A DNA stretch of 44,441 nt from positions 1 through 44,441 of the forward strand of contig PNKH01000065.1 in NCBI GenBank assembly GCA_013822345.1, given 5' to 3'. The stretch is from Isosphaera sp. GTDB taxonomy: Bacteria > Planctomycetota > Planctomycetia > Gemmatales > Gemmataceae. Below the pieces are notes generated by a model. It had not been told where the DNA came from. It was given only the letters and a program-made list of their open reading frames with translations, and searched no databases. A program made the translations under genes and the position numbers. This document shows, piece by piece, positions 3,163-44,420 of this stretch (its first letter is position 1; each line of letters begins with the position of its first letter).

Positions 3163-3230
3163 CCGTCCGAGCCGGACGCGTGAGCGACGGGTCTTGCCCG
3201 GCCCGTCGCTCACGCGTCCGGCTCGGACGG
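3163..3230. repeat. Inverted repeat, 29-bp perfect arms, 10-nt spacer (GAGC family)
   Basis: Arms 3163-3191 and 3202-3230 are perfect complements around a 10-nt spacer. The element starts 5 nt after the S9 peptidase stop. The core GAGCCGG...GTGAGCGAC recurs in the elements at 15082 and 33309. No T-run follows, so it is not a classical intrinsic terminator, although the RNA would fold very stably. Confidence 0.92.
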
Positions 3231-34702: not shown

Positions 34703-36937
34703 ATGCCCGACCTGCTCGCCAAGATCCTCCACGCCGTCACCGCCCACAGCTACACCCCGATCAAGGCCAAGCCGCTGTTCAGGCGGCTCAACCTCGGCGA
34801 GGACGCCTACCCCGAGTTCCGCCGCACCGTCCGCGAACTCGTCCGCACCGGCCGGCTGGCCGTCGGCCGGAACAACACCATCCGCCCGGCCGACCCGCAC
34901 GGCACCGTCACCGGCACCTTCCGCCGCACCTCCGCCGGCCACGGCGTCGTCCGCCCGCACCCCGTCGACGGCACCTTCAAGCCGGACGTGTTCGTCCGCG
35001 AGGACAAGACCCAGGACGCCTCGACCGGCGACGATGTGCTGGTCCGGATCACCCGCGAGGCGACGACCATCAAGGACGCCGCCGGGGAGGTGGTGCGCGT
35101 CCTGGGGCGGGCCACCCGGACGTTCGTCGGCACCTACTTCGAGCGCGACGGCGAGGGCCTGGTGCGGGTCGACGGGACCGTCTTCTCGCACAGCGTGTCG
35201 GTCGGCGACCCCGGGGCGAAGGGGGCGAAACCGCACGACAAGGTCGTGATCGAGATGCTCCGGTTCCCGTCGCCGGACGGCCGCGGCGAGGGGGTCATCT
35301 CGGAGGTGCTCGGGCCGCACGGCCAGCCCGGCGTCGACACCCTGTCGGTGATCCGGGCGTTCGGGCTGCCGGAGGCGTTCTCGGAGGCGGCGCTCGCCGA
35401 GGCCCGGCAGGTCGCCGACCAGTTCTCCGAGGACGACCTCGCCGGCCGGACCGACTTCACGCACGACCTGGTCGTCACCATCGACCCGCCGGACGCCAAG
35501 GATTTCGACGACGCCGTGAGCGTCACCATCGACCCGAAGACGCGGCACTGGGTGCTGACGGTCCACATCGCGGACGTCGGGGCGTTCGTGAGGCCCGGCG
35601 GGGCGCTGGACGCCGAGGCCCGGAAGCGGGCGACGAGCGTGTACCTGCCGGGGAAGGTCATCCCGATGTTCCCGGAGGTGATCTCGAACGGGCTGGCGTC
35701 GCTGCAGGAGGGGAAGCTGCGGTACGTCAAGACGGTGCGGATGGAGTTCACCCCGAACCTGCAGAAGGGGCACGTCCAGTTCTTCAGCGGGGCGATCCGG
35801 AACCGGAAGCGGTTCACCTACGACGAGGTGCAGCAGCTCCTCGACGGCCTGGCGGGCGGCTCTTCGCCATCTCCCCCGGCAGGGGGCGTAGGGGAAGACC
35901 GAACCCCCCCGGCGGACCCCGACGTCCGCGCCATGCTCCGCCGGATGCGCGACCTGGCCCTGCTCCTGCGGAAAAAGCGGTTCCGCCGCGGGGCGCTCGA
36001 GCTCACCATGCCCGAGGCGGTACTCGAGTACGACGCCGACGGCCGGGTCAGCGGGGCCCACTTCGCCGAGCACACCCTCAGCCACCAGATCGTCGAAGAG
36101 TTCATGCTGGCGGCGAACGAGGCGGTCGCCGAGCACTTCACCCGCCACGAGGTGCCGTTCCTCCGCCGCGTCCACCCGGCCCCGAACGAGGACAAGCTGG
36201 AGGCGTTCGCCCGGTTCGCCGACCTCCTCGGCCATCGCATCAAGCGCCCCCAGGACCGGTTCGAGCTGCAGGCCGTCCTCGGCAAGACGGCCGACCAGCC
36301 GGAGAGGGCGGCGGTCCACTTCGCCCTGCTGCGGAGCCTGAAGCAGGCGGCGTACTCGCCGGTCCAGGACGAGCACTACGCCCTGGCGATCCAGAACTAC
36401 TGCCACTTCACCTCGCCGATCCGCCGCTACCCGGACCTCCAGGTCCACCGCCTCCTGGACCGGTGGCTGAAGCACGGGACGGCGTCGGCGGACGTGGAGG
36501 AGCTGACCGCCCTGGGCGACCACTGCTCGAAGATGGAGCGGCGGGCCGAGACGGCGGAGCGGGAGTTGGTGAAGCTGAAGATCCTGACGTACCTGGCGGG
36601 CCGGCTCGGGGAGCGGCTGGACGCGGTCATCACCGGGGTCGCGGACTACGGGTTCTTCGCCCAGGCGGAGCGGTTCCCGGCCGAGGGCCTGGTCCACATC
36701 TCGTCGCTGGTGGACGACTACTACGGGTTCGACGAGGACGCGCACACGCTGGAGGGGAAGCGGACGGGGCGGCGGTTCCGGCTCGGGGACCGGGTGCGGG
36801 TGGAGGTGGCCCGGGTGGACGTGGCGCGGCGGATGCTCGACTTACGGCTCGCCGACCTGCCGCCCCGCCGCGCCGCGGACGACGAGGTGCCGAGCTACGG
36901 CCGGTCGCCGAAGCGGCGGGGCGGGCGGCGCAGCTGA
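34703..36937 (+). CDS. rnr: Ribonuclease R
   Basis: A 744-residue 3'-to-5' exoribonuclease that degrades structured RNA. An N-terminal winged-helix-like domain (about 1-65) precedes two cold-shock domains (about 70-230). The RNB domain (about 245-575) has the catalytic DPPDAKDFDDA with Asp261, Asp267, Asp269 and Asp270, plus YCHFTSPIRRYPDLQVHRLL. An S1 domain (about 635-715, LDAVITGVADYGFFAQ, GLVHISSLVDDYYGF) and a basic tail (GRSPKRRGGRRS) follow. Residues about 386-405 (GGSSPSPPAGGVGEDRTPP) are an in-frame insert encoded by a degenerate palindrome. In a genome with so many hairpin-ended transcripts, RNase R would be a natural enzyme for their turnover (inference). Confidence 0.95.
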   Translation: MPDLLAKILHAVTAHSYTPIKAKPLFRRLNLGEDAYPEFRRTVRELVRTGRLAVGRNNTIRPADPHGTVTGTFRRTSAGHGVVRPHPVDGTFKPDVFVREDKTQDASTGDDVLVRITREATTIKDAAGEVVRVLGRATRTFVGTYFERDGEGLVRVDGTVFSHSVSVGDPGAKGAKPHDKVVIEMLRFPSPDGRGEGVISEVLGPHGQPGVDTLSVIRAFGLPEAFSEAALAEARQVADQFSEDDLAGRTDFTHDLVVTIDPPDAKDFDDAVSVTIDPKTRHWVLTVHIADVGAFVRPGGALDAEARKRATSVYLPGKVIPMFPEVISNGLASLQEGKLRYVKTVRMEFTPNLQKGHVQFFSGAIRNRKRFTYDEVQQLLDGLAGGSSPSPPAGGVGEDRTPPADPDVRAMLRRMRDLALLLRKKRFRRGALELTMPEAVLEYDADGRVSGAHFAEHTLSHQIVEEFMLAANEAVAEHFTRHEVPFLRRVHPAPNEDKLEAFARFADLLGHRIKRPQDRFELQAVLGKTADQPERAAVHFALLRSLKQAAYSPVQDEHYALAIQNYCHFTSPIRRYPDLQVHRLLDRWLKHGTASADVEELTALGDHCSKMERRAETAERELVKLKILTYLAGRLGERLDAVITGVADYGFFAQAERFPAEGLVHISSLVDDYYGFDEDAHTLEGKRTGRRFRLGDRVRVEVARVDVARRMLDLRLADLPPRRAADDEVPSYGRSPKRRGGRRS
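35861..35898. repeat. Decayed palindrome inserted in frame in rnr
   Basis: TCTTCGCCATCTCCCCC (35861-35877) and GGGGGCGTAGGGGAAGA (35882-35898) pair at 13 of 17 positions around GGCA. It lies in an RNB-domain loop that RNase R homologues do not usually have, and reads as a Ser/Pro/Gly-rich segment. Confidence 0.6.
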
Positions 36938-36943
36938 GAGACC

Positions 36944-37041
36944 GTTCCGGAAGGGGTGGCGTGGGAGGGCGAGGCTCCCGCCGAGCCGCCTACCTCCGGC
37001 TCGGCGGGAGCCTCGCCCTCCCACACCACCCCTTCCGGAAC
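36944..37041. repeat. Inverted repeat, 44-bp arms with one mismatch, 10-nt spacer
   Basis: Arms 36944-36987 and 36998-37041, mismatch at 36960, 10-nt spacer. It begins 7 nt after the rnr stop. The inner part (GCTCCCGCCGAGCC) resembles the GAGC family. Confidence 0.93.
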
Positions 37042-37067
37042 AGAGCTGCGCATCGGTCTAAACTGTG

Positions 37068-37294
37068 TCCGGGGCGGCAGTTTATCGCCGGCAGAGAATC
37101 CCCGGGTCATCACTTATCGCCTCGCGGTCTGCGGCAGAATCGTTACAGTCATCTCCACGCCGCCACCGTCTCGCGCAATCCCTCTCTCCCGCTCGGTGGC
37201 GGCCCACGCCCGGCAGTCCCGGAGTGGATGGCGCCCTTCGCCCGTGGGGAGGTCGGGGCGCCGCCGGGGGATCTCCCCACGGGAGCATACCGAG
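37068..37294 (+). promoter_or_regulatory. Structured leader of the PEP-CTERM pseudogene (copy 1)
   Basis: Shares order and spacing with 37967-38193: CCGGGGCGG near 37068 followed by TTTAT at 37081, a TACAGT -10-like box near 37144, the stem GCCGCCACCG (37159-37168) / CGGTGGCGGC (37194-37203) with a 25-nt loop, and a second stem CCCGTGGGGAGGT (37241-37253) / ATCTCCCCACGGG (37271-37283) ending 11 nt before the former start codon. Confidence 0.6.
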
Positions 37295-37841
37295 ACGCGC
37301 AACACGTTCTGGGCCGGGTGCGCCGCCGCGGTGGCGGTGCCCGCCGGGGCCGGCGGCACGGCGAGGGCGGAGTTCATCGTCGCGGAGGTCGAGCCGAGCA
37401 ACGCGTTCGCCGCGCAGCAGGTGCTGCCGGCCGGCCCCGGCCAAGTGACCGGGTCGGTCGCCCCCGGGACGTGGACAACTTCCGGTTCACCCTGACCCCG
37501 GGGCGCGGTTTGTCGCCGAGATCATCGCCGGGACGTTCGACACCGTCCTCGGGCAGCGGAACGACGCCGGGGCGATCGTCGCCACCGACGACGGCGGCGG
37601 GGTCGGCCTGCTGTCCCTCTTGGCCGGCCAGCTCGTGTCGGCGGACGGGGCGGTGAGGCTGGCCGTGTCGGGCTTCCCGGACTTCGGGTTCGCCGGGGCG
37701 CCCGCCGGGCAGACCGGCAGCTTCACCCTGGTGCTGACCGCGGAGGTGCTCCCCGTGCCGGAGCCGGCGGGCATGGCCCTGCTGGCGGCCGGCGGGCTCG
37801 GCCTGGCCGGGTACCGCCGGCTCCGCCGGGTCAAGGCCTGA
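37295..37841 (+). pseudogene. PEP-CTERM protein pseudogene (start lost, two frameshifts)
   Basis: A broken paralogue of the gene at 38194. The start codon position reads ACG (37295-37297, in GACGCGCAAC) where the intact copy has ATG. The frame then gives RNTFWAGCAAAVAVPAGAGG, RAEFIVAEVEPSNAFAAQQV and LPAGPGQVTGSVAPG. A one-base deletion near 37470 shifts to DVDNFRFTLTPG, and another near 37505 shifts to RFVAEIIAGTFDTVLGQRND, ending with the PEP-CTERM tail VPEPAGMALLAAGG, GLAGYRRLRRVKA. Both deletions fall in G/C runs. With three independent lesions, a functional product is unlikely. It would have carried a single PPC-like domain. Confidence 0.85.
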
Positions 37842-37966
37842 CCGACGTGGGGTGACTTCCGATTCGGGGCGGTCGGGTGTCGGCGTCGGCCGTCGCCCGA
37901 CCGCCCCGACAGTTTCAGAACGTTATGTGAAGAACTCGCGTAGCCGATAATCGATATGATGTGCGG

Positions 37967-38193
37967 CCCGGGGTGGAAATTTATGCCGCCGGGGAATCAG
38001 TGTTTGCTTACTTTTCTTTCCGTGCCGGGTGTCGGACTCTGTAGACTGTCCTCCACGCCGCCACCGACTTGTTGACCTCCTTCCCTGCCACCCGGTGGCG
38101 GCCCGCGGCCGGTGGACCCGCCGCGCAAGCCCCCTTCCCCGGTGGGGGGGATCGGGGCCGTCGCCTTCCCCCTCCCCACGCACGAGGTTCGCG
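37967..38193 (+). promoter_or_regulatory. Structured leader of the intact PEP-CTERM gene (copy 2)
   Basis: CCCGGGGTGG near 37967 followed by TTTAT at 37980, an AT-rich stretch (37984-38022), a TAGACT -10-like box at 38042-38047, the stem GCCGCCACCG (38057-38066) / CGGTGGCGGC (38093-38102) with a 26-nt loop that contains CCTCC, and a second stem (GTGGGG near 38141 with CCCCAC near 38178) just before the ATG at 38194. The rest of 37842-37966 shows nothing recognisable. Confidence 0.6.
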
Positions 38194-39141
38194 ATGCGCA
38201 GGTTTCTCTGGGCGGGGTGCCTGACCGGCCTGGGGTTGCTCGGCGGCGGGGCGGCGCGGGCGGACTTCATCGCCTCGGACACCGAGCCGAACCAGACGTT
38301 CGCGACCATCCAGCCGCTCCCGGCCGGGCCCGGCCGGGTGGTCGGGTCGACCGTCGCCGGGGACGTGGACAACTTCCGGTACACCCTGACCCCCGGGCAG
38401 CAGTACGCCGCCGCGATCGTCGCGGGGACCCTGAACACCGTCCTCGGGGCGCGGGACGACGCCGGGGTGATCATCCCGACCCCGGACGACGACAGCGGGG
38501 CCGGCCTGTACTCGCTGCTCACCCCGATCCTGGTGCCAGCGAGCGGCCAGGTGAACATCGCGGTGACCGGGTCCGCCGACCTCGGGCTGGTCGGGGCCCA
38601 CGCCAACGCCGGGACCTACACCCTGGAGGTGGAGCAGCTGGTGATCGCCGCCGACGCCGAGCCGAACGACACGTTCGCCACCTCGCAAACCCTGGGGGCC
38701 GGGGTGAACACGGCGACCGGGACGATCGTCGGGGGCGACGTCGACTTCTACACCTTCACCGGGCTGGTCCCCGGGTCGGTGTTCGGGGCCAGCGTGGTGG
38801 CCGCGGACTTCGACACCGTCCTCACCCTGTTCGACAACACCGGGGCGTTGGTCGCGTCCGACGACAACGACGGGTTCGGGCTGCTGTCGGCCCTGGCGAA
38901 CCAGATCGTGGCGATCGACGGGACGGTCACCCTGGCCATCTCGGGCATCTTCGCCGCGCCCGCGTTCCCGGGCCCTGGCGGGGGCGGGTTCGCCCCCCAG
39001 CCGCTCGGCCAGGTCGGCAACTACATGCTGGTGGTGTTCGCCCAGGACGCGGTCATCCCGGAGCCGGCCAGCGTGGCCCTGCTGGCGGCCGGCGCCGTCG
39101 GGCTGGCCGGGTACCGCCGGCTCCGCCGGGCCAAGGCGTGA
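38194..39141 (+). CDS. PEP-CTERM sorting-domain protein with two PPC-like domains
   Basis: A 315-residue exported protein starting at the ATG at 38194 with a signal peptide (MRRFLWAGCLTGLGLLGGGA). Two bacterial pre-peptidase C-terminal (PPC)-like units follow: DTEPNQTFATIQPLPAGPGR then GDVDNFRYTLTPGQQYAA (about 28-145), and DAEPNDTFATSQTLGAGVNT then GDVDFYTFTGLVPGSVFGAS (about 150-260). The C-terminus VIPEPASVALLAAGAVGLAG then YRRLRRAKA is the PEP-CTERM signal that exosortase recognises for surface anchoring. Exosortase is not in the window. A truncated paralogue lies 0.35 kb upstream. It ends in a convergent palindrome. Confidence 0.88.
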   Translation: MRRFLWAGCLTGLGLLGGGAARADFIASDTEPNQTFATIQPLPAGPGRVVGSTVAGDVDNFRYTLTPGQQYAAAIVAGTLNTVLGARDDAGVIIPTPDDDSGAGLYSLLTPILVPASGQVNIAVTGSADLGLVGAHANAGTYTLEVEQLVIAADAEPNDTFATSQTLGAGVNTATGTIVGGDVDFYTFTGLVPGSVFGASVVAADFDTVLTLFDNTGALVASDDNDGFGLLSALANQIVAIDGTVTLAISGIFAAPAFPGPGGGGFAPQPLGQVGNYMLVVFAQDAVIPEPASVALLAAGAVGLAGYRRLRRAKA

Positions 39142-39148
39142 CGTGAAC

Positions 39149-39211
39149 GGTCCGAGCCGGAGCGCCAGCGACGGGTCAGCCTGACCCGTCGCTGGCGCTC
39201 CGGCTCGGACC
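39149..39211. repeat. Near-continuous 63-bp palindrome (31-bp perfect arms, 1-nt centre)
   Basis: Arms 39149-39179 and 39181-39211, between the convergent PEP-CTERM and alpha-2-macroglobulin genes. The arm contains GAGCCGGAGCGCCAGCGAC, AGC-phased units related to the GAGC family at 3163, 15082 and 33309. Confidence 0.94.
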
Positions 39212-39228: not shown

Positions 39229-42200
39229 TCACTTCTTCGCCCCGACCTTGAGCACGAACGAGTCGGAGTGCCCGCCGACCGTCGGCTTGTACATCAGCTC
39301 GACCCGGGCCGGGGCGAGGCGGAACTCGCCGGCGAACTCCGTCAGCACCACGAACTCGGCCGTCACCGGCCCGGCCGCCCGCTCGTAGTGGAAGCAGGTC
39401 ATCGCCTCCCGGTCCTCGCGCAGGACGTGCTGCCGCGGCGGGGCGTCCTTGGCGAACCGCCCGTCGTCCGCCGGCACCGTCTCCCCGCCGGCCGGCTTCG
39501 GGCTCTCCAGCAGCGTGTACTGCAGCTGCGTCCCCGGCCCGGGCGTCGCCGTCACCCGAACCCTGACGTAGCTCCCGGCCGGGACCGCCGCCCCGGTCTT
39601 CAACTCGGCCCAGGTGCCGTCGGCCGCCCGCACGCTGACCGTGCGCTCGACCTTCACCCCGTGGTCCCGGGCCGGGATGTCGGCCCCGGGGCCGCGGGTG
39701 AACGCCACCACCACCCGGGCCAGCCCGCCGGCCTTCGCGTCCGGCCCGGTCACCGCGAACACGTTCTCGCCCGGCTTCAGGTCCTTGCCGGTCAGGGTGA
39801 TGACCTTCGAGGTCGGGCCGTCGAGGGTGGTCGTCCCGTCGGCGACCCCGTTCACCGACACCTTGACTTCCCCGGCGGCCGCCGGCCCGGCCTTCACCGC
39901 CGCGAGGTAGTCGCACAGGGCGTACAGGACGGACGCGGTGTCCTTGGTCGAGTCCCACCGGTCGCCGCGCTTGGTGGCGTGGAAGAACGCCAGGACCCCG
40001 GGCAGGAGCGGGTCGTGCGGGTCGTGGGCGACCAGCGCCTTCATCACCGTGGCGGTCACCTCGGTGGTGTTGTCGCCCCACCGGGAGAACCCGGCCGAGG
40101 TCCAGTACACCCGGTCGCCGGACGTCTTGGCCCGCTTCCGCAGCTCGGCCGCGAGCATGCCGGCGAACGGCTTCTTGCCCCGCTTGACCGCGACTTCCAG
40201 GGCGAAGGCGCACCCGGCGTCGGACATCAACGGGGTCTCGGTCCATCTCACGATCCGGACCCACCACGGGTCCAGGTTGACGGTGTCGTCCCGGGTGGCG
40301 GCTACCCACAGGCAGAACAGGGCGTCGTTGACGACCGGGTGGCGGCCCTTGGGGTCCGCCGCGGCGGCCGCGTCCCACTGCCGGCCCATGTCGTCGAGGT
40401 ACTGCTTGAGCCGCCCCATCCCGCGGTCGATCGTGTGCGGGTTCGGGCACGGGTACCCGGCCTGCTCCGCCGCGATCAGCCCGAACAGGGCGTACGGCGT
40501 CATCATCTCGTGCGTCGTGCCGCTCCCCTGCCAGGCCCACCCGCCGTCCGGCTGCTGCAGCTCGATCAGCCGCTTCTGCCCCTGCTCCACCACCTTCGGC
40601 AGCTTCGCCTCCAGCTCCTTCGGCACGCCGCCGCCGGACTGCTTGAGGATCTGGGCGACGCGGATCGCCGGGAGGAACCGGCTCATCGTCTGCTCGACGC
40701 ACCCGTACGGGTACTCGACCAGGTACGGCAGGGTGTCGGCGAGGTCGGCGGCCAGCGTCGGGGCGACGGTCACGGTGGCGGTCGCCCGGGCCGGGTCGAA
40801 GTCGGCCGGGAGGGTGAGCTTCAGGTCGCCCTTGCCGACCAGGCCGGACGCCGTCGCCCGCTCCAGGACCCCCGCCGGCGTGACCGGCAGCTTCTTCAGC
40901 GAGGCGTCACTGCCGGCGTCGCACTTCGCGGACATCAGCAGGTCGGTGAACCCCTTGGTGCCCGCCCGGTAGTCCCAGTACACCGGGGCGCTCCCCTTCG
41001 CCGGCACCGTCACGGCCTGCTCCGCGTCCGCCAGCACCCGGCCGTTCTCGGCCTTGAGGTGGGCGCGGATCGTCTGCTCCTTGTCGGTCAGGTTGTGGAC
41101 CGTGCCGAACACGCGGACGGTGTCGCCCTCGGTGAACGTCCGCGGGAGCATCGGCCACACCATCACCGCCCGGGTGCTCTTGAACGTCGCGGTGCCGGTG
41201 CCGACGTGCATCTTCGGCGACACCGCCGTCACCTGGACGCGCCAGTTGGTGAGCGAGTCCGGGAGCTTGAAGCTCGCCGTCGCGGTGCCGTCGGCGGCGG
41301 TGCGGAGCTTGGCGGTCCAGTGGGCGCTGTCGGCGAAGTCGCGGCGGACCACCTCGTCCGGCAGGCCGAGGCCGGGCAGCGCCACCCCGCCGGCCGGCAA
41401 CGCGACCGGGCCGAAGTCGCGGTTGAACCCGAACGACATCCCCATCTGCCCGCCGACGAACGGCTGGGAGAACGCCGCGTTCCCGCCGGCGAAACCGCCG
41501 CCGCCGAAGCCCCCGCCGAACCCGCCGCCCTTGCCGAACCCGAACTGGCCGGCCAGGTTGCCGAACTGCCCGAGCTGCCCGCCGCCGACCTGCAGCCCGC
41601 CGGCCCCGAACCCGAAGTTCCCGCCGAACCCGGAGATGCCGTTGAACCCGGGGCCGTGGAACTGCCACCCGGAGAACCCGGTGCAACTGAACCCGCACTG
41701 CCCGAACCCGATCTGCTGGAACCCGGTGCAGCTCATCCCGCCGAAGTACCCGCCGTTGAACGACAGGCACCGCGGCGGGGCGTGCCCGTACGGGTTGCCG
41801 CGGTGCCCGACCCACGGGTCGGACGGGTACCCGTCGTCCGGCCTGCCGGGGCGGGCCGCGACCCCGACCAGGGCGACGTTCCCGACCACCGTGGCCGAGA
41901 CGAACAGCCGCTGGCCGTTCACCGCGTCCTTCTTCTCCCACCGGAGCAGGTCGGCCAGGGTGGCGGTCTTCGGCACGTTCCACGCGGCCGTCCCGTCCCC
42001 GTGGTACAGGGAGTGGGCGAGGTACACCTCCAGCCCGGTGAGCCGGACCAGGGTGACCACGTCGGCCAGCCCGACCCGCCCCTCCTTCCAGTGGTTGACG
42101 AGCCCTTCGAGCTGCGGCCGCAGGACCGGGTCGCGGTCGAGGGTCGGCTTGTCCGCCAGCAGCGCCTCGGCCTTCTTCACTAACTCGGCGACGGTGACGG

Positions 42201-44385
42201 CCCCGACCCGGGTGGCGGCGAGGTCGCGGGCCGCCCGGGCCTGGCCGCGGGCGTCGGCGAGGAAGTGGTTGCGGATGTCCTTCGCCAGGTCGCCCGACAC
42301 GCCCAGGAGCGACTCGTCGAACACCGACACGATCAGGTCCACCTCCTCCTTCCGGTCGAGCTTCACCCCGAGCTTCACCTCCGCCCCCGGCCCGACCTCG
42401 GCCGGCGGGGTGACTGTCACGCCGATCGTGCGGTCGTTCGGGATCACGAACAGGTCGCGCTGGTCGGCGTGAACCTGCGTCGCGCTCTCGGGGTACTGGA
42501 CGCACACCGCGCAGCCGTACCGCAGGTTCGCCGGGAGCGGCTCGTCGATGACGGCGACCCCGCGGGCGTCGGCGGTCAGCGGCTTGACCACCTTCACCCC
42601 CTGCGCGTCGCGGAGGGTGAGGAGGAGCTTCGCCCCGGCGAACCGGGTGTGGGCGGCGCCGGTCAGGCGGGTGCCGGACGTGATCTCGCGCCGGTCGAGG
42701 TGGAGCACGACGCCGGGCAACTTCGCCGGGGCCTTCACCACCACGCCGGTCTCGCTCTGGAACGACGAGCCGTCCGGGAGCCTGGTGACGGCGAGGAGCT
42801 TGTACGCCCCGGGCTGCTTCAGCTCGACCGTCGTCGCGCCGCCGGCGACCGGCGTCGCCGACACGACCCGCCGCTTCACCGGGTCGAAGACCGGGACGGC
42901 CTTCCACCCGCCGGCGGCCGGGGCCGGCTTCGGCTTCGGGGCGGGGGCACCGATCGCCGGCAGCCGGGTGTTGTCCGGCAGGACGGTCCCCTCGGGGTCG
43001 GAGTCCGGGGTGACCCACGGGTTGGCGGGTTGGGCGTCGAGGCGGACGACGATCAGAGTCGTGGCCGCCTGGACCCCCCGCTTCAGGCCGAACAGGTGGA
43101 CCGCCGCGGGGATCTTCTCGCCGAGGGCGTACGTCTCCTTGGGCGTGGTCACGCTCACCCCGCAGACCGGGCGGAGCTCGAGCGGGAACGTCCCGGCCGC
43201 CCGGTTCTCCCGCCCGGTGTCGTCGGTGAACACCCCGGCGACGGTGACGGTGTGGCCGCCCTTGAGCCACTCGGGGTGGAGGTCGAGGACGAGCTTCGCG
43301 GCGCCGTCGGCGATGTCCACATTCCCGTCGCGGCTGGCGACCTGGCGGCTGCCGAACCCGGCGAAGGTCATGGCCGAGACGCCGTTGGCGAGGGTGAGGA
43401 GCCGCTCGTCGTCCGGCAGGGCTTCGAGTTCGTCGGACCCGGGCGGGCCGCCCTCGGGGTGGGCGAACTCGTCCGGGTTGAGGGTCAGCTTGGCCGGCTC
43501 GGCGGCGCGGGCGACGGCGGCCGTGTAGGTGGCGGCGGTCCCCTTCACCGGCCGGTCGAGGTAGTCGCGGGCGTCGAACGAGACGTGGAGTTTGCCGTCC
43601 TTCACCTCGCCGGTGAGCTTCAGCCCGACCTTCGTCTTGCGGTACTCGCCGAGCAGGACGCGGGCCGACCCGGCGAACCCGCTAGCGGTGAGGACGTAGT
43701 GGTCGAGGGCGTCGGCGTCGGAGAACGTGTACTCGCCGGTGATCCGGCCGTGGGCGTCGGCCCGGACGCGGATCCGGGCGGCCCGGGTCTGCTTCGCCTG
43801 GCTGGTGATGTCGATGAGCACCTCGCGGTCGGCCCCGGCCGGGAACTCCGGCGGCTCGAACTCGCCGTCGGGGTCGAGCTTGCGGAGGAAGGCGACGAAC
43901 CGGAGGGTGTGGCCGGGGCGGTACGCGGACCGGTCGGTGACGAAGAACGCGGTCTGGCCGCGGACCGCCGGGGCGGGGAGGACGGTGGTGCGGGCGGTGA
44001 GCGGCTGCTTGACCCCGGGGAGGGTGACGGTCGCGGTCACCGGGGTGGCGGCGGTGGCGGGGAAGTCGTGGGCGAAGGTGCCGTCGGCGGCGAGCTTCGC
44101 GGTCGCGGTGCGGGCGTTGCCGAGCCGGAGGGTGACCGCCGTGCCGGCGGGGGCGGCGTGTTTGCCGGCGACCCACCCGCGGACGCCGCGCTCGTCGGGG
44201 AGCAGCACCAGGACCGGGGCGTTGGCGGCCGGCTCGACCTTCGCGAACAGGGGGGTGACCGGTTTCGGCGGGTCGGTGACCGGCCGCGGGGGCGGGGCTT
44301 GGGTGTCGGTGCGGACGAGGGCCGCGACGAGCGAGGTCGTCAGCAGCCCGGCCGCGGCGGCGGCCAGGTAACGGGTCCGGAGCAT
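39229..44385 (-). CDS. Bacterial alpha-2-macroglobulin with thioester and Gly/Phe-rich bait-like region
   Basis: A protein of 1718 residues starting at the ATG at 44385 with an N-terminal export signal or anchor (LAAAAAGLLTTSLVAALV). MG-type domains fill the first half: FVTDRSAYRPGHTLRFVAFL, then VDLIVSVFDESLLGVSGDL near 685. The thioester motif is YPYGCVEQTMSRFLP with Cys1229, followed by the alpha-helical TED (GGWAWQGSGTTHEMMTPYAL; DDMGRQWD). Residues about 870-970, where the protease bait lies, are extremely Gly/Phe-rich with four Cys (MSCTGF, GQCGFSCTGF, GGGFGGGFGGGGFAGG). ADSAHWTAKLRTAADGTATA leads into the ANA segment. These proteins trap attacking proteases covalently. No penicillin-binding-protein partner (PBP1C) is adjacent. 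Confidence 0.9.
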   Translation of the reverse strand: MLRTRYLAAAAAGLLTTSLVAALVRTDTQAPPPRPVTDPPKPVTPLFAKVEPAANAPVLVLLPDERGVRGWVAGKHAAPAGTAVTLRLGNARTATAKLAADGTFAHDFPATAATPVTATVTLPGVKQPLTARTTVLPAPAVRGQTAFFVTDRSAYRPGHTLRFVAFLRKLDPDGEFEPPEFPAGADREVLIDITSQAKQTRAARIRVRADAHGRITGEYTFSDADALDHYVLTASGFAGSARVLLGEYRKTKVGLKLTGEVKDGKLHVSFDARDYLDRPVKGTAATYTAAVARAAEPAKLTLNPDEFAHPEGGPPGSDELEALPDDERLLTLANGVSAMTFAGFGSRQVASRDGNVDIADGAAKLVLDLHPEWLKGGHTVTVAGVFTDDTGRENRAAGTFPLELRPVCGVSVTTPKETYALGEKIPAAVHLFGLKRGVQAATTLIVVRLDAQPANPWVTPDSDPEGTVLPDNTRLPAIGAPAPKPKPAPAAGGWKAVPVFDPVKRRVVSATPVAGGATTVELKQPGAYKLLAVTRLPDGSSFQSETGVVVKAPAKLPGVVLHLDRREITSGTRLTGAAHTRFAGAKLLLTLRDAQGVKVVKPLTADARGVAVIDEPLPANLRYGCAVCVQYPESATQVHADQRDLFVIPNDRTIGVTVTPPAEVGPGAEVKLGVKLDRKEEVDLIVSVFDESLLGVSGDLAKDIRNHFLADARGQARAARDLAATRVGAVTVAELVKKAEALLADKPTLDRDPVLRPQLEGLVNHWKEGRVGLADVVTLVRLTGLEVYLAHSLYHGDGTAAWNVPKTATLADLLRWEKKDAVNGQRLFVSATVVGNVALVGVAARPGRPDDGYPSDPWVGHRGNPYGHAPPRCLSFNGGYFGGMSCTGFQQIGFGQCGFSCTGFSGWQFHGPGFNGISGFGGNFGFGAGGLQVGGGQLGQFGNLAGQFGFGKGGGFGGGFGGGGFAGGNAAFSQPFVGGQMGMSFGFNRDFGPVALPAGGVALPGLGLPDEVVRRDFADSAHWTAKLRTAADGTATASFKLPDSLTNWRVQVTAVSPKMHVGTGTATFKSTRAVMVWPMLPRTFTEGDTVRVFGTVHNLTDKEQTIRAHLKAENGRVLADAEQAVTVPAKGSAPVYWDYRAGTKGFTDLLMSAKCDAGSDASLKKLPVTPAGVLERATASGLVGKGDLKLTLPADFDPARATATVTVAPTLAADLADTLPYLVEYPYGCVEQTMSRFLPAIRVAQILKQSGGGVPKELEAKLPKVVEQGQKRLIELQQPDGGWAWQGSGTTHEMMTPYALFGLIAAEQAGYPCPNPHTIDRGMGRLKQYLDDMGRQWDAAAAADPKGRHPVVNDALFCLWVAATRDDTVNLDPWWVRIVRWTETPLMSDAGCAFALEVAVKRGKKPFAGMLAAELRKRAKTSGDRVYWTSAGFSRWGDNTTEVTATVMKALVAHDPHDPLLPGVLAFFHATKRGDRWDSTKDTASVLYALCDYLAAVKAGPAAAGEVKVSVNGVADGTTTLDGPTSKVITLTGKDLKPGENVFAVTGPDAKAGGLARVVVAFTRGPGADIPARDHGVKVERTVSVRAADGTWAELKTGAAVPAGSYVRVRVTATPGPGTQLQYTLLESPKPAGGETVPADDGRFAKDAPPRQHVLREDREAMTCFHYERAAGPVTAEFVVLTEFAGEFRLAPARVELMYKPTVGGHSDSFVLKVGAKK

Positions 44386-44420
44386 GGTGCGCCACCCCCT
44401 TCGGGTTGCCACAGGCACCG

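Follow-up and report, generated by a model that had tools for sequence, protein, structure and literature searches.

The window, by which we mean the whole stretch of 44,441 nucleotides analysed, is contig C65 of an Isosphaera genome (7.47 Mb in 226 contigs, completeness 95.2%). Two tandem PEP-CTERM genes, the first of them broken, sit there between the gene for RNase R and an alpha-2-macroglobulin-like gene. The features of the locus are, in order of position:

34703-36937, RNase R gene (TIGR02063)
37144..37149, + strand, -10-like hexamer TACAGT of copy 1, aligned with TAGACT of copy 2
37159..37203, + strand, stem-loop 1 of copy 1, 10-bp perfect arms and a 25-nt pyrimidine-rich loop
37241..37283, + strand, start-proximal stem of copy 1, a predicted fold not more stable than shuffles
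37295..37841, + strand, PEP-CTERM pseudogene (copy 1), with ACG at the start position and two reading-frame changes
38042..38047, + strand, -10-like hexamer TAGACT of copy 2, aligned with TACAGT of copy 1
38057..38102, + strand, stem-loop 1 of copy 2, arms identical to those of copy 1 and a 26-nt loop
38142..38179, + strand, start-proximal stem of copy 2, a predicted fold (z +0.56, not significant)
38194..39141, + strand, intact PEP-CTERM protein gene (copy 2), 315 aa (PF07589, TIGR02595)
39229-44418, strand opposite to the PEP-CTERM pair, alpha-2-macroglobulin-like gene (PF00207)

The intact gene starts with ATG at 38194, and its product scores 20.8 bits against PF07589 (cut-off 20.7) and 21 bits against TIGR02595 (cut-off 16). 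The pseudogene contains one repeat unit, the intact paralogue two. The host genome has 24 matches to the PEP-CTERM motif and two exosortase genes.

Long near-perfect palindromes with arms of 25-45 nt and a REP-like look lie at 36944-37041 and 39149-39211 and also at 3167, 15086 and 33313; by eye, four of them have GAGCCGG ... AGCGAC (or nearly so) in common, 36944 being the exception. Anywhere in the window, no Rfam family reached its gathering score; miRNA-like Rfam matches, all below gathering scores and mostly on the long palindromes, were discarded. Upstream of the leader hairpin of copy 1 there is in addition a small dyad, TAAACTG ... CAGTTTA (37059-37084), which by eye has no counterpart at the corresponding position in copy 2.

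The leaders of both genes contain a perfect inverted repeat with the arms GCCGCCACCG and CGGTGGCGGC, which lie at 37159-37168 and 37194-37203 in copy 1 and at 38057-38066 and 38093-38102 in copy 2. A preliminary description of this DNA had stated that the stem is kept perfectly in the two leaders, that the 25- and 26-nt loops are almost unrelated and that the 5' arm keeps its distance from the start, and all three statements were borne out. In an alignment of 153 columns the arms are identical at 20 of 20 positions, the other columns at 72 of 133 and the whole at 92 of 153 (hypergeometric P for the arms 1.5e-5, the arms being a post hoc choice). The loops are identical in 14 of 26 columns, and since 288 of 2000 pairs of shuffled loops reach their alignment score, "almost unrelated" is a fair wording; in composition they are alike (80% and 77% pyrimidine). 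The 5' arm lies 126 and 127 nt before the start, which in copy 1 is the position that reads ACG (37295). Conserved arms with drifted loops are thus confirmed as an observation.

A longer leader alignment (236 columns, 140 identical) gave the same picture: the two arms lie within its two longest identical runs, CTCCACGCCGCCACCG and CGGTGGCGGCCC of 16 and 12 nt, and top runs of at least 16 and at least 12 nt were obtained in 0.12% of 20000 column shuffles. Outside the arms the conservation continues with CTCCAC before and CC after. At the fourfold-degenerate coding sites of the paralogues, compared over three pieces, with the intact gene's second repeat as the best-aligning partner of the third, 58 of 75 are identical. 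On the strength of the 20/20 identity relative to the other columns, of the run shuffles and of the fourfold sites the arms look constrained, and they probably are, two sequences being all that exist and the arms having been chosen after inspection of the data. The two leaders would go back to one upstream region that was copied along with its PEP-CTERM gene.

We considered the explanation that the element has no present function, the inverted repeat having arisen by chance in a GC-rich leader and the identical blocks having survived from the tandem duplication. Hairpins in themselves are no rarity in the window: perfect arms of at least 10 nt enclosing a loop of 3 to 40 nt occur at 40 places, and in five shuffled sequences at 2, 6, 8, 11 and 12. 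Such a chance origin also agrees with the broken state of the first gene and with the post hoc choice of the arms from a single pair of sequences. It has difficulty with the finding that the longest runs of identity are complementary to each other, which is unlikely by chance (0.12% for the runs, P 1.5e-5 for the arms), and gene conversion would be expected to include the intervening loop as well. We regard this explanation as about as likely as a DNA operator and somewhat less likely than a hairpin in the leader. If instead purifying selection maintains the 10-bp inverted repeat, its retention in copy 1 would mean either that the gene broke recently or that the element still acts.

Taken alone, the hairpin is predicted to fold with -22.7 kcal/mol (z -4.9) in copy 1 and -21.3 kcal/mol (z -4.2) in copy 2, values that go with a post hoc choice of the segment. 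Of 500 column shuffles, 496 gave a poorer consensus fold energy than the two rows themselves. The mean pairing probability of the stem was at least 0.98 in each of the 12 transcript models whose 3' end does not pass the end of the leader. It was below 0.5 in 7 of the 18 models that reach into the genes; three further models of copy 1 gave 0.0, 0.0 and 0.41, the value 0.0 belonging to the 3' ends 37329 and 37330. The leaders from stem to start (37154-37293 and 38052-38192) were predicted to fold no better than their shuffles (z -0.37 and -0.25). On the opposite strand the hairpin is predicted to be more stable (-27.9 and -27.2 kcal/mol) than on the coding strand (-22.7 and -21.3 kcal/mol).

In both copies a hexamer of the form TANANT begins 15 nt ahead of the stem, and it is the one TANANT that the two leaders share in their alignment. 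TACAGT (37144) and TAGACT (38042) are alike except at positions 3 and 5, where neither matches TATAAT. The window has ten TANANT hexamers on its + strand and four on its - strand, and of these 14 places the two in the leaders are the only ones followed within 15 nt by an inverted repeat with arms of 8 nt or more. A scan of 36900-38300 passed no promoter of the sigma-70 type, and for TACAGT and TAGACT no -35 element better than 3/6 was found. Two other PEP-CTERM genes of the same genome (L023 and L030) have TTGACG-N17-GACAAT or CACAAT. The rare form TA(C/T)ANT, each time a possible -10 element, is present on the + strand also at 1188, 6663, 14306, 19001, 19560, 25034 and 33410; among these, 19001 alone has a -35 match better than 3/6.

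Because both copies have a -10-like hexamer that begins 15 nt ahead of the stem, the hairpin may lie close to the 5' end of the mRNA; if the hexamer is a -10 element, the stem would begin 2-3 nt from that end. Weaker candidates are located further upstream (TAAACT at 37059 in copy 1; TATGAT at 37955 and TTATGT-N17-GATAAT in copy 2), and if one of these were used as promoter, the stem would still be inside the transcript.

The inverted repeat could also act as DNA. Each arm would then be one half-site for a transcription factor, a dimer or tetramer, which would bind immediately after the -10-like hexamer, or after a promoter lying further up, and repress or activate the gene. Between the copies the dyad is constant in sequence as well as in pairing, as expected for contacts between protein and DNA; the conservation on either side of the arms (CTCCAC before, CC after) and the nearly fixed spacing of 25/26 nt point the same way. 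For a simple dimer site, 10-bp perfect arms 25-26 bp apart are long and far apart, which counts against an operator, as does the distribution of the dyad in the genome: with exact 8-nt arms it is near no other PEP-CTERM gene. On balance a DNA operator comes close to a leader hairpin in likelihood, neither of the two being probable in its own right. The preliminary description had taken conserved stems and drifting loops as what selection at the RNA level would give. The constraint and the drift are there; the step to an RNA mechanism does not follow, since a DNA dyad would leave the same pattern.

Compensatory base changes give no support to an RNA mechanism. All 10 pairs of the stem are invariant between the two sequences, and since the pairs never vary, evidence from covariation is absent. 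Elsewhere in the leader alignment there are four double changes, fewer than the mean of 6.4 in shuffled alignments; two double changes had suggested compensatory changes in a middle hairpin, a candidate that was dropped after column-shuffled alignments showed more. A regulatory RNA demonstrated by covariation is therefore not supported.

The preliminary description had proposed to search the Gemmataceae with a covariance model built from the two leaders, and had named the absence of further copies with covarying stems as the finding that would speak against a regulatory RNA. Such copies were absent from 95 genomes of the family, searched by pattern and by model, and from 397 genomes of the class, searched by model (the host genome is included in both sets); nothing convincing was found beyond the two leaders. 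The model (R1) recovered the leaders at E 1.9e-19 and 1.2e-18, and the next best matches had E 0.015 in the family and 0.0046 in the class, with E calculated per genome; both searches used stricter Infernal filters, by which weak matches can be lost. At E up to 1 there were matches in 28 of the 95 family genomes, and at E up to 0.05 in 11 of the 397 class genomes, the host included, which with E-values per genome is no more than chance beyond the two leaders. The 39 distinct places outside the leaders included 35 with a locus, and these were scanned with a regular expression for PEP-CTERM-like motifs that recovers 21 of the 24 PEP-CTERM loci of the host; one of the 35 (L099) matched, with a hydrophilic tail unlike a sorting signal. 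That the predicted family of copies was not found in either set agrees with a chance origin of the repeat.

The exact 10-nt-arm pattern (gap 18-34) was present in two of the 95 family genomes, the host and one other (G028). Besides the leaders, the host has such a stem in contig C5, inside overlapping long open frames, and the stem in G028 is in a repeat-rich stretch that by eye looks coding; both look like chance and were set aside. We take the stretch in G028 to be FG-GAP-like.

An element common to PEP-CTERM genes was likewise rejected, since among the 24 matches in the host genome, of whose presumed starts at least three are doubtful, the two in the window are the only ones that adjoin a stem with exact 8-nt arms. 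The 8-nt-arm pattern (exact, gap 20-34) has eight forward places in this genome, namely the two leaders and six others, and six places when read backwards. Perfect arms of at least 10 nt were found in 4 of 20 PEP-CTERM upstream stretches (L018, L020, L025 and L029, the last being that of the window), the count omitting three of the 24 with doubtful starts and one that was too short; by eye the inverted repeats of L018, L020 and L025 are unlike the stem described here.

The copy 2 protein gave weak partial matches only, in 40 of the 95 family genomes including its own, the best outside its own genome being 35% over 143 residues (E 6.3e-7). A named genome collection, from which records very near the host genome may be left out, contained four distant matches (best 39%, E 7e-13), and the stretches examined at these four relatives contained no 8-nt-arm stem. 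No relative of the protein was found in viral contigs, and the DNA of leader 2 had no match in 18 other genomes of the genus. Since the searches with leader 2 DNA, with R1 and with the protein yielded no close relatives, gene and leader appear, as far as is visible, to be specific to this lineage. The lack of a close homologue of the gene also means that there is no suitable material for a comparative test. The element thus consists of two copies in one genome; it is real and probably constrained, and it is a lead from a single locus rather than a class.

Nearer to the start codon the preliminary description had seen a second stem, with an A-T pair in one copy and a G-T pair at the same place in the other. 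The stem occurs in both copies, and the difference exists; it is a one-sided change and not a compensatory one, and shuffled sequence is predicted to fold as well as this part of the leader (z -0.80 in copy 1, +0.56 in copy 2). The CCTCC noted in the loop of copy 2 is also present and can pair with GAGG before the start. The pairing between loop and ribosome-binding site has energies of -11.9 (copy 2) and -13.7 (copy 1), and because 144 and 176 of 1000 shuffled loops, respectively, reach the same energies, it has no support above chance. On this pairing a self-contained translational switch could be built, in which a lineage-specific leader RNA keeps its stem fixed while each loop and the ribosome-binding site of the same copy drift in step, so that the loop pairs with its own start region. 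Were it true, the switch would be private to a single pair of PEP-CTERM genes; we consider it very improbable.

We favour, with a probability of roughly 0.4, a lineage-specific hairpin in the 5' leader that acts in the mRNA. In hand for it are the sequence, the conserved arms, the drifted loops and the predicted fold; transcription through the arms, the position of the 5' end and an effect on stability or translation are what we infer. The constrained inverted repeat would most likely be an mRNA hairpin, probably near the 5' end, whose stable stem and open pyrimidine-rich loop may protect the transcript from decay that depends on the 5' end. Alternatively, the hairpin could be the landing site for a protein or an RNA.

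Stabilisation of E. coli mRNAs by secondary structure at the 5' end is described in PMC3997798. The leader hairpin resembles the 5' stem-loops of the ompA/papA type in E. coli in having a stable GC-rich stem in the 5' leader (predicted at -22.7 and -21.3 kcal/mol), possibly a few nucleotides from the 5' end; it differs in its loop of 25-26 nt and in being found in one genome only. With the cis-regulatory RNAs of Rfam it shares the position in the 5' leader, the difference being that no family matches at gathering score. Among the matches listed in literature searches on PEP-CTERM promoters, leaders and riboswitches, no such leader is described.

What is cited here on the regulation of PEP-CTERM genes concerns the proteobacterial system of sigma-54 and PrsR (PMC1569441 and PMC9850573). 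According to PMC1569441, many PEP-CTERM genes of Proteobacteria have a sigma-54 site and, upstream of it, a further motif; the regulator PrsR shows the same phylogenetic profile. PMC9850573 contains a sigma-54 case that has been tested. In the host genome, 95.2% complete, none of 34 matches to PrsR (TIGR02915) exceeds 502.6 bits, the best having 392.4. Neither leader has a GG-N10-GC core upstream of the stem; the five such cores in leader 1 and the two in leader 2 begin within the 3' arm or beyond it and agree with 4-6 of the 11 consensus positions. The likeness to the proteobacterial PEP-CTERM box is that of a non-coding element upstream of PEP-CTERM genes, whereas the element described here is a dyad and was found before one gene pair only. 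If real, it would offer one lead on the control of such a gene in a genome with no PrsR above the cut-off.
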